64,000 nucleotides of DNA from Mycetocola tolaasinivorans (lineage in GTDB: Bacteria; Actinomycetota; Actinomycetes; Actinomycetales; Microbacteriaceae), in contig NZ_RCUX01000010.1 of assembly GCF_003667565.1 (NCBI RefSeq), forward strand, positions 1-64,000, read 5' to 3'. The notes below the pieces were generated by a model that had not been told where the DNA came from, did not search any database, and saw only the letters and a program-made list of their open reading frames with translations. This document shows positions 58,313 through 61,059 of the stretch, piece after piece; the first letter of the stretch is position 1; every line of letters starts with the position of its first letter. The position numbers and the translations under genes are program-made.

Positions 58313-59077
58313 ATGACGAACGACCCCGCCACCCCGGAACAGAAACCGGTGAGCCGCCGAGAGGCGCACACACCGGCCACGACCGAGGGGGCGGGGTCTT
58401 CCTCATCCGTGCCCGAGGACGCCATTGCTGGGCCTGCCGCCGCGGCACCGCCGCAGCGCTCGCGCGCCCGCCGCATCGCCGGCCTCATCACCAAGATCGT
58501 CTCCTGGGTCGTCATCGGGGCCGCCGCCGCCCTCATCATCGCTTTTGTGCTGGTGCCCCGCGTCACCGGCGCCACCCCCTACACGGTGCTCACCGGATCG
58601 ATGCGCCCCAGCATGCCGCCCGGCACCACCGTCGTCGTGCGCCCCGTCGAGTTCGACACCATCCGGGTGGGCGACGTCATCACCTACCAGATCGCCTCCG
58701 GCAAGCCCGAGGTCGTGACCCACCGCGTGATCGCCGTCAACATCACCCCCGAGGGCCCACGCCTCGAAACCAAGGGCGACGCCAACCCCGCACCCGACCA
58801 GAACCCCATCCGGCCCGAACAGGTGCGCGGCAAGGTCTGGTACTGGGCACCGGTCGTGGGCTACCTCAGCCAGGGCGTCCAGACCGACACCCGCACCTGG
58901 ATCGCCCGCGGCATCGGCATCGCCCTGATCGGATACGCCGGCTACCTCGTGGTCAGCGCCGTCCGCGGCCGCGCCCGCCGCCGAGCCGAAGAACACGCCG
59001 CCGAGGAACACACGATCGAGGAGCACACGACCGAGGAACACTCGGCCGAAGAGCACGACGCCGAAACCCCGCGCTAA
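58313..59077 (+). CDS. SipW-type signal peptidase I with EEH-repeat tail
   Basis: A 254-residue S26 peptidase. The catalytic serine is Ser96 in LTGSMRPSMPPG and the general base is His137 in VVTHRVIAV, the Ser-His arrangement of ER-type/SipW enzymes in place of the usual Ser-Lys. DNA after the active site encodes LETKGDANPAPDQNPI, also typical. Membrane helices are near residues 62-82 and 205-222. The tail has about six EEH-type repeats (AEEHAAEEHTIEEHTTEEH). It should process the alternate-signal proteins encoded downstream. Confidence 0.9.
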   Translation: MTNDPATPEQKPVSRREAHTPATTEGAGSSSSVPEDAIAGPAAAAPPQRSRARRIAGLITKIVSWVVIGAAAALIIAFVLVPRVTGATPYTVLTGSMRPSMPPGTTVVVRPVEFDTIRVGDVITYQIASGKPEVVTHRVIAVNITPEGPRLETKGDANPAPDQNPIRPEQVRGKVWYWAPVVGYLSQGVQTDTRTWIARGIGIALIGYAGYLVVSAVRGRARRRAEEHAAEEHTIEEHTTEEHSAEEHDAETPR

Positions 59078-59093
59078 CCGCACGATCACAACC

Positions 59094-59143
59094 GCACCTC
59101 ACCCGCATTCCCACCGCAAGATTGCGGGGTGAGGTGCTTTTTT
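59094..59143 (+). terminator. Terminator after the signal peptidase gene
   Basis: Arms 59094-59107 and 59123-59137 pair with one bulge and are followed by six T. It separates the purA-sipW unit from the fibre operon and its long leader. Confidence 0.88.
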
Positions 59144-59175
59144 GTGCCCAAAATCATCCGAAACGACTCTCAAGC

Positions 59176-59323
59176 GGGGGACAACCCCAAAGATTTCTTG
59201 CGCAAGGCGGACAATTCCGTGTCCCCCTTAAGCCCCATTTGGGGGACATTTTGCACAGAATATGCATTTGCGCAGCGTCAATATCTCAAATCTTGAGCTT
59301 TTCTTGAGCAAATGGTGTCCCCC
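59176..59323 (+). ncRNA. Two large GGGGGACA/TGTCCCCC hairpins in the fibre-operon leader
   Basis: GGGGGACA at 59176-59183 and 59241-59248 alternates with its exact reverse complement TGTCCCCC at 59220-59227 and 59316-59323, giving two successive hairpins (or one alternative long pairing). The second has extra pairing inside (ATTTTGC with GCAAAT) and a CTTGAGC direct repeat in its loop. The region is A/T-richer than its surroundings. No protein-coding frame with plausible codon use is seen. Calling this an RNA is inference from structure; it could also act as DNA. Confidence 0.5.
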
Positions 59324-59403
59324 GCGCGAAAAAAAGGGAAACGTTGTCGCGATTGCGGCGTTCATCTTGAGGCGGGCTCGCAATTATTGAGTCAACGGCA
59401 AGC

Positions 59404-59611
59404 GAGAACAACCCGAAACTGTTCTCACCGCGGAGAACACCCCCAACGTTCTCGCAGCCAGAGGGTGACCCCAAGCACCCACCCCGAGACCAACCCGAAA
59501 TTGATCTCACCCGGGACCAACCCGAAATTGGCCCCACCGAGGACAACCCGAAACCCGTCCTCACCGGGGCCACCCGAAACCGCATCCCGAGCTCAACCCG
59601 AAACTGAGCTC
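59404..59611 (+). ncRNA. Array of about eight stem-loops with constant loop and covarying stems
   Basis: Stem-loops follow each other every 25-30 bases. Clear ones: 59404-59426 (GAGAACA/TGTTCTC), 59433-59453 (GAGAAC/GTTCTC), 59463-59480 (GGGTG/CACCC), 59486-59508, 59513-59535, 59539-59562 (GAGGAC/GTCCTC) and 59589-59611 (GAGCTCA/TGAGCTC); one at about 59566-59588 is weak. The loop core is CCCGAAA in six and CCCCAA in two, while stem sequences differ and still pair. Most are separated by ACC. The array ends about 60 bases before the first fibre-protein start. I know of no described element like it. Confidence 0.6.
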
Positions 59612-59669
59612 ACCCGATGCAGCGGCCTCACCTCCCCCCATGACGCCTCCCCCCAAAAGGACACCCACC

Positions 59670-60245
59670 ATGAAGAAGACCACCACTGCCGCCATCGCCG
59701 CTACCCTCGGCGCAGCCCTGCTGCTCGGCGGCGCCGGAACCCTCGCCTACTGGACCGACACCAAGGATGCCTCCCCCCAGGTCATCAACTCGGGTAACCT
59801 CGAGCTCGGTCAGATCGACTCCGCTACCTGGAGCGTTCAGCAGATCGTTGGCGACAAGAAGAGCGACGCGGTAAAGGTTGACCCGAACAACTTCCGCATC
59901 GTTCCGGGTGACGTTCTCACCACCACGGTCAACGTGCCGGTAACCCTCGTGGGCACCGACATCAAGGCCAGCCTCAAGGTGGATGACATCTACTGGGAGT
60001 CCAGCTCGCTGCGCGACCAGCTCACCCCGACCGTCGTCAGCATCAACGGCCAGGCTCCGGTAAACGGTGCCGTCACCATCGCCGCGACCCCCGGTCAGAG
60101 CACCGTGAACGTGCCCGTCGTGGTTTCGGTCTCCTACAAGTGGGACGGCGCAACCCAGCGCGCAAACAACCGCGGTGAGTTCAGCAACAGCGCCACCCTG
60201 CGCGCCAAGTACGTCCTGACCCAGGTACCCGTTACCCAGAAGTAA
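59670..60245 (+). CDS. Alternate-type signal peptide (SipW-dependent) fibre-like protein 1
   Basis: A 191-residue secreted protein of the TasA/camelysin-like superfamily. The N-terminus (KKTTTAAIAATLGAALLLGG followed by AGTLAYWTDTKDAS) is the alternate signal cleaved by SipW-type peptidases. The mature part is a beta-rich jelly-roll-like domain (SGNLELGQIDSATW, VPVTLVGTDIKASLKVDDI). The start is ATG 59670 with AAAAGGA upstream. Such proteins form extracellular fibres in Firmicutes. It is the first gene of the operon and lies right after the stem-loop array. Confidence 0.85.
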   Translation: MKKTTTAAIAATLGAALLLGGAGTLAYWTDTKDASPQVINSGNLELGQIDSATWSVQQIVGDKKSDAVKVDPNNFRIVPGDVLTTTVNVPVTLVGTDIKASLKVDDIYWESSSLRDQLTPTVVSINGQAPVNGAVTIAATPGQSTVNVPVVVSVSYKWDGATQRANNRGEFSNSATLRAKYVLTQVPVTQK

Positions 60246-60441: not shown

Positions 60442-60477
60442 CCCCTTATCTCCCCCATGACAGAAGAGGACCAGGCC

Positions 60478-61059
60478 GTGCGTAAACTCATCGCCGCAGC
60501 GCTCGCTTCCCTCGTGGGTGCCGCCCTCCTCTTCGGCGGTGCCGGAACCCTCGCGTTCTGGACCGACAGTAAGGATGCGGCTCCGCTCACCATCCAGTCC
60601 GGATCGCTGAGCATCGGCCCGATCGGATCGGAAGCCGCCACCTGGACCCTCGGTCAGGATGTGCCCGGCGGCCGCGGATCCGCGGCCGTACGCTACACCG
60701 GCCAGGCCCTCGTGCCCGGCGACATTCTCACCGCAACCGTGAACGTTCCGGTTGAACTCGTGGGAACCGATATGGCCGCGAGCCTCGCCGTTTCCGCCCT
60801 CACCGTCACCGCCGCGAGCGGTAAGGCGGCCGACCAGGGTCTCGCGCAGAGCCTCGTCACCCGGGTGGTCAGCGTTGGTAGCGCCCAGGCAGGCCCCGAC
60901 GGCCAGGCCCCCACCGCGACGATCCGTGGAGACGTACGTACCGTGCCGGTCGTGATCAGCGCGACCCTGCCCTGGGCCACGACGTCCGCAATGTCCGGTA
61001 GCGTAAAGCTCGCAATGACCTACACCCTGACCCAGCAGCCGATCGGAGCCGCCTCGTGA
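60478..61059 (+). CDS. Alternate-type signal peptide fibre-like protein 2
   Basis: A 193-residue paralogue of the preceding protein. The signal reads VRKLIAAALASLVGAALLFG, then GAGTLAFWTDSKDAAPLTI, and the body repeats the same landmarks (SGSLSIGPIGSEAATW, VPVELVGTDMAASLAVSAL). The start is taken as GTG 60478 because GAGGA lies eight bases upstream; ATG at 60457 would add seven residues. Its stop overlaps the next start (GTGA). Confidence 0.82.
   Translation: MRKLIAAALASLVGAALLFGGAGTLAFWTDSKDAAPLTIQSGSLSIGPIGSEAATWTLGQDVPGGRGSAAVRYTGQALVPGDILTATVNVPVELVGTDMAASLAVSALTVTAASGKAADQGLAQSLVTRVVSVGSAQAGPDGQAPTATIRGDVRTVPVVISATLPWATTSAMSGSVKLAMTYTLTQQPIGAAS

Follow-up and report, generated by a model that had tools for sequence, protein, structure and literature searches.

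A hairpin array with a constant ACCCGAA loop before a SipW-dependent fibre operon: a candidate repeated RNA element in surface-gene leaders of Microbacteriaceae

Described repeated leader elements and the array before the fibre operon

The targets of CsrA/RsmA, and the CsrB/RsmZ sponge RNAs, carry many hairpins with one loop motif; sites lie near the Shine-Dalgarno sequence and the targets are of the surface or biofilm type. In the TRAP leader, a short repeated motif is read by one protein, and the sites are unpaired triplets. ANTAR-target RNAs occur in actinobacterial 5' leaders, often near the ribosome-binding site, as tandem hairpins with conserved terminal-loop bases and variable stems (PMC8164766, PMC3369931). 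Two stem-loops are arranged in tandem with a linker of 2-25 nt (PMC8164766), and the hexanucleotide loops have A1 and G4 and are otherwise variable (PMC8164766, PMC3369931).

The array described here lies in a 64,000-nt stretch of Mycetocola tolaasinivorans DNA, which is referred to as the window. At the Rfam gathering score, neither the window nor any of 20 related loci matched a family, and nothing meaningful was found at E<=1 in 11 loci. No mention of the ACCCGAA motif was found in the open-licence literature. The array and its surroundings are as follows:

58313..59077, + strand: signal peptidase I, archaeal/SipW type (TIGR02228, 89.1 bits)
59094..59144, + strand: terminator-like hairpin and T run 3' of the signal peptidase gene, read from sequence
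59292..59371, + strand: three CTTGAG repeats (59292, 59303, 59366), largely conserved in the genus
59385..59390, + strand: possible -10 element TATTGA, suggested by conservation in the genus; a consensus scan gave no support
59404..59426, + strand: hairpin unit 1, GAGAACA - ACCCGAAAC - TGTTCTC
59433..59453, + strand: hairpin unit 2, GAGAAC - ACCCCCAAC - GTTCTC, variant loop
59463..59480, + strand: hairpin unit 3, GGGTG - ACCCCAAG - CACCC, variant loop
59486..59508, + strand: hairpin unit 4, GAGACCA - ACCCGAAAT - TGATCTC, single C.A mismatch
59513..59535, + strand: hairpin unit 5, GGGACCA - ACCCGAAAT - TGGCCCC, single A.C mismatch
59539..59562, + strand: hairpin unit 6, GAGGAC - AACCCGAAACCC - GTCCTC
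59565..59587, + strand: unit 7, GGGGCC ACCCGAAA CCGCATCCC, pairing weak
59589..59611, + strand: hairpin unit 8, GAGCTCA - ACCCGAAAC - TGAGCTC
59612..59618, + strand: ACCCGAT, in the place of a degenerate ninth copy, read from sequence
59670..60245, + strand: SipW-dependent exported protein (TasA-like), with the array in its leader (TIGR04089, 119.9 bits; TIGR04088)
60457..61059, + strand: second SipW-dependent exported protein (TIGR04089, 80.4 bits)

The eight units within 59404-59611 start 23-30 nt apart; all but one, which is weak, have stems of 5 bp or more. The loop contains ACCCGAA in six of the eight, and ACCCC(C)AA, i.e., ACCCCCAA or ACCCCAA, in the other two. Because the arms of the units at 59404 and 59433 are identical, cross-unit pairing is possible, and the minimum-energy fold uses it. 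The units at 59513 and 59565 are able to pair around the 59539 hairpin, which can itself be extended by pairing of 59529-59535 with 59566-59572.

The gene order is SipW-type signal peptidase, terminator-like hairpin, about 260 bp with the CTTGAG repeats, array, and two SipW-dependent protein genes, so that the terminator-like hairpin separates the fibre genes from the signal peptidase gene. Across the genus, a promoter-like block 5' of the array is kept as far as AAGCG at the array edge. A consensus sigma-70 scan upstream of the array found no promoter, and no -10-like hexamer was seen by eye from the end of the last unit to the ATG at 59670. Given the conserved block 5' of the array and the lack of a -10-like hexamer before the ATG, the array most likely belongs to the fibre operon's own mRNA, as part of its 5' leader; transcription would start near 59397, directly before unit 1. 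The CTTGAG repeats upstream may be regulator sites or promoter elements. Those at 59292 and 59303 are direct repeats 11 bp apart, the third is near the putative promoter, and they resemble response-regulator sites. Also 5' of the array, at 59174-59325, GGGGGACA and TGTCCCCC make up inverted and direct repeats that are possibly regulator sites; the 10-nt arms at 59174-59183 and 59316-59325 are 100% complementary.

Like Csr/Rsm RNAs, the array has many hairpins with one loop motif before surface-protein genes. The Csr loop, however, is GGA, which is absent from the window's hairpin loops (ACCCGAA or ACCCC(C)AA), and CsrB/RsmZ are free RNAs, whereas the array most likely belongs to the leader of an mRNA. 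Further, CsrA (PF02599) is absent from all four genomes of the genus (G000-G003); it was found in other members of the family and also in three control genomes. A Csr link for the genus is thus excluded. The initial annotation had also considered a free-standing CsrB-like sponge, which is not supported, as the array lies between the genus-conserved promoter-like block and the start codon. The repeated leader motif is alike in principle to that of the TRAP leader, but TRAP sites are unpaired triplets and the array lacks a following terminator. There is no T run after any unit, and a scan of 59404-59611 found no terminator-like site, so the units do not qualify as intrinsic terminators.

ANTAR-target RNAs of the EutV/NasR/PdtaR type are similar to the array in that both consist of tandem leader hairpins with a conserved loop and variable stems, and neighbouring units in the window are a few nt apart, as in the ANTAR tandem. 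In contrast to the A1/G4 hexaloop, the window loops are ACCCGAAA followed by C or T, or CCCGAAA, and are 7-9 nt long; where hexaloops are formed (L092, L095 and L096) they are CCCGAA, with C1. The array also differs in keeping the whole of ACCCGAA in most units and in having up to eight copies. The array most likely works, by analogy, like Csr or ANTAR targets; given the absence of CsrA and of the A1/G4 hexaloop, it is a member of neither group.

Folding, stem covariation and copy number in the genus

The sense RNA from 59397 to 59672 folds with -92.2 kcal/mol, compared to -58 +/- 4.1 kcal/mol for dinucleotide shuffles (z -8.3, 0/200). The opposite strand of the array region gave a weaker z of -4.8. 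Covariation was scored on a set of seven 23-nt units, of which the window supplied four and a relative three. Two-sided changes were found in four of the seven stem pairs, and the score was 0.354, while shuffling gave a mean of 0.138 (0/500) and slid registers a maximum of 0.175; the sample consists of few paralogous units of equal length, and template switching can also keep arrays paired. The fold z and the covariation above slid registers together indicate that the arrangement is not due to chance. Internal stem mismatches on the sense strand comprised 10 G.U and 11 A.C, with A.C dominating in the window itself. Since the two counts are nearly equal, pairing alone is no proof of a sense RNA. 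The initial annotation had described at least seven hairpins whose stems change yet remain paired around a constant loop, and had proposed base-pair covariation as the check. Its account of stems and loops agrees with the eight units found, and on the seven units covariation did exceed that of the shuffles.

Array copy number shifts fast within the genus, from eight to 3-4 to one. At the equivalent position G001 and G002 have 3-4 units (three good ones plus further loop copies), and both have ACCCGAA where the window has ACCCGAT. In G003, the fibre gene is retained and preceded by one loop motif, ACCCGAAG, and no array. Absence of the array from relatives that keep the operon, which the initial annotation had said would count against it, is thus seen in G003 and not in G001 or G002. 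In the window's genome, a second SipW-dependent gene is preceded by two sense copies of ACCCGAAAC at -74 and -49, with no clear hairpins. At loci chosen by the fibre protein only, upstream ACCCGAA is mostly sense-oriented.

An array of this kind could be neutral, made by tandem duplication of one unit; template switching at inverted repeats (quasi-palindrome correction), and not selection, would then maintain the pairing of the stems. The rapid copy-number change in the genus and the likeness of the 23-30 nt units are what such a process would leave. We nevertheless regard a neutral origin as improbable, because the same loop is found on unrelated stems in leaders elsewhere, in different genera and before different genes, and invariably in the sense orientation.

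Recurrence of the loop in Microbacteriaceae leaders

A pattern of three ACCCGAA copies with gaps of 12-32 nt was searched for in 400 Microbacteriaceae genomes and found in 48; the reversed control, counted from the same table, was found in about 12, and many of the forward matches resemble coding repeats. From the pattern matches, 20 non-coding arrays (about 13 independent groups) were chosen by eye, orientation and hairpins not being criteria. All 20 are sense to the next gene. In seven of them the last ACCCGAA copy is 1-14 nt before the start codon, as predicted, like all gene starts for array loci, by a home-made finder. This leaves no space for a promoter, and those seven arrays must therefore be transcribed. 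Hairpins were not a selection criterion for these loci, yet among their 95 ACCCGAA copies, a set that takes in those of the window and G002, 47 fall in hairpin loops closed by a stem of at least 6 bp (with shuffled flanks, mean 15.3 and maximum 23). Among coding copies in the sampled DNA the fraction is 36/141 (Fisher p 0.0003). Tandem ACCCGAA copies are unpaired in L109, L110 and parts of L093 and L100. Such unpaired arrays in some genera suggest that the feature recognised is ACCCGAA in single-stranded form, which hairpins may be one means of presenting. A survey of 7-mers in gene-upstream regions showed no general enrichment of ACCCGAA, which is concentrated in a few leaders. It ranks first among the 7-mers that occur three or more times in a leader, but all three loci concerned come from sequence pre-chosen for arrays, so the ranking is not independent evidence. 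When named genomes were scanned for the ACCCGAA pattern, unrelated phyla were represented among the matches listed.

Most array-preceded genes encode surface, matrix or adhesin-like proteins. Examples are:

L110: SipW-dependent protein, with six ACCCGAA copies in the leader
L093: fimbrial isopeptide-domain protein, weak match
L098: laminin-G/beta-propeller protein, with similar proteins in L099 and L104
L101: DUF7927/SpaA-like protein
L108: DUF11/CARDB protein
L106: beta-helix protein
L109: CWB2 cell-wall-binding protein

Off-theme downstream genes encode TetR (one genus), MarR and a small zinc-ribbon-like protein. The TetR-gene leader (L091, L092, L094, L097 and L301) has several ACCCGAA hairpins with covarying stems and lies 3' of a palindromic, operator-like GACAGACTTGTCTGTATGTCC.

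With respect to the initial annotation, a search of related Microbacteriaceae, which it had named as a check, bore it out in that the loop recurs in sense leaders, and went against it in that G003 lacks the array. Its suggestion of a multi-site control leader before the fibre genes is strengthened by the presence of the loop in sense 5' leaders of other genera.

Surface proteins are often highly expressed, and the local structure near the putative 5' end of the fibre mRNA is strong. A structured 5' leader might thus act with no factor at all, shielding a highly expressed mRNA from nucleases or spacing the ribosome, with the loop favoured for its stability. This explanation is unlikely, given that an identical loop is found on unrelated stems and in unrelated genera, that ACCCGAA is also present as unpaired tandem copies in L109 and L110, and that it is uncommon as an intergenic hairpin loop in sampled family DNA (1/114, that one in a known array).

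Single hairpins were sought with a synthetic covariance probe of random 8-bp stems and an ACCCGAA loop, the control having the reversed loop AAGCCCA. At 30 bits or more, 200 family genomes gave 26 ACCCGAA hits versus 1 for the control, whose first pass yielded about half the candidates; across the class, mostly outside the family, the numbers were 0 and 1. Seventy probe loci were inspected. Most of the single hairpins are terminator-like or coding and are orientation-neutral (15 lie between two sense neighbours and 17 between two antisense ones), and single strong ACCCGAA hairpins were therefore set apart from the leader element. A conserved hairpin 3' of mazG was likewise rejected. Its apparent conservation is partly an artefact of loop selection: when 30 mazG loci were picked on the protein alone, only 5 had an ACCCGAA no more than 200 nt away. 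The mazG hairpin has an ACCCGAA loop on differing stems in several genera (L306, L308-L311, L313, L318, L319, L383, L413 and L440).

The orientation-neutrality of single ACCCGAA/TTCGGGT hairpins elsewhere (15 sense, 17 antisense), and the symmetry of the G.U and A.C mismatches (10 vs 11), would be expected if the repeats were a directional DNA site downstream of the promoter, either for a DNA-binding protein or as a cruciform. The arrays, in contrast, are always sense and extend within leaders as far as the start codon, and their spacing is irregular, from about 9 to 38 nt across loci, with no helical phasing. A DNA site, too, is an unlikely explanation.

Proposed action and candidate partners

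We favour, with moderate confidence, the reading that the array acts in cis as a repeated RNA element within the fibre operon's 5' leader, and that its loops would be bound by a putative trans factor that alters translation or decay. Each hairpin would display a single-stranded (A)CCCGAA loop, and the factor, most likely a protein, would bind loops at several sites and so change translation or decay of the fibre mRNA. Where the loop is 1-14 nt from the start codon, a factor bound to it would keep ribosomes off the mRNA, and copies further 5' could strengthen binding locally, as happens in the Csr and ANTAR systems.

The same loop precedes other surface and matrix genes, at several of them in the ribosome-binding region, and the ACCCGAA loop therefore probably marks surface- and matrix-gene leaders in Microbacteriaceae as a post-transcriptional regulon. 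Its recurrence before surface-protein genes suggests a previously undescribed post-transcriptional control of cell-surface proteins. More speculatively, and with the balance somewhat against it, the family may have an ACCCGAA-leader regulon for surface and matrix proteins served by an RNA-binding protein of an unexpected family, as a functional counterpart of Csr/Rsm in bacteria some of which, this genus included, lack CsrA. One such protein could be an ANTAR protein particular to the lineage whose loop specificity has changed. All 20 genomes searched encode an ANTAR protein, with one per genome in the window's genus (78.9 bits in G000), and it is, by analogy, a candidate partner. Little is known of post-transcriptional control in Actinobacteria, and this genus is without CsrA. 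A loop motif common to many leaders offers a concrete handle on the factor and its regulon; if real, such a regulon would account for the coordination of fibre, adhesin and cell-wall-binding proteins across a large bacterial family.

The loop might instead be read by RNA, through a UUCGGGU loop or segment of a small RNA or 3' UTR, as a 7-bp kissing or antisense pair. Strong hairpins occur in the 3' regions of L372 and L393, and their UUCGGGU loops are fully complementary to the ACCCGAA loop. We nevertheless regard an RNA partner as improbable, as we do a neutral origin: no conserved multi-copy TTCGGGT RNA was found, and UUCGGGU is present in 16S rRNA, yet one 7-mer rRNA match is unsurprising. 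With regard to pairing with a tRNA loop, there was no tRNA-Pro in the sampled loci.

Some further observations concern the complementary motif. In 16S rRNA (L153:9707-9720), CTTCGGGTTG is the complement of CAACCCGAA in the window; this match of 7-9 nt is probably due to chance. Intergenic 3' regions in L302, L372, L393 and L114 have two to three successive hairpins with ACCCGAA or TTCGGGT loops in either orientation, and these runs are possibly terminators or 3' UTR elements. In one genus (L371 and L395), a hairpin with TTCGGGT in its loop on the sense strand, the complement of the usual orientation, lies 5' of a predicted secreted-protein gene.
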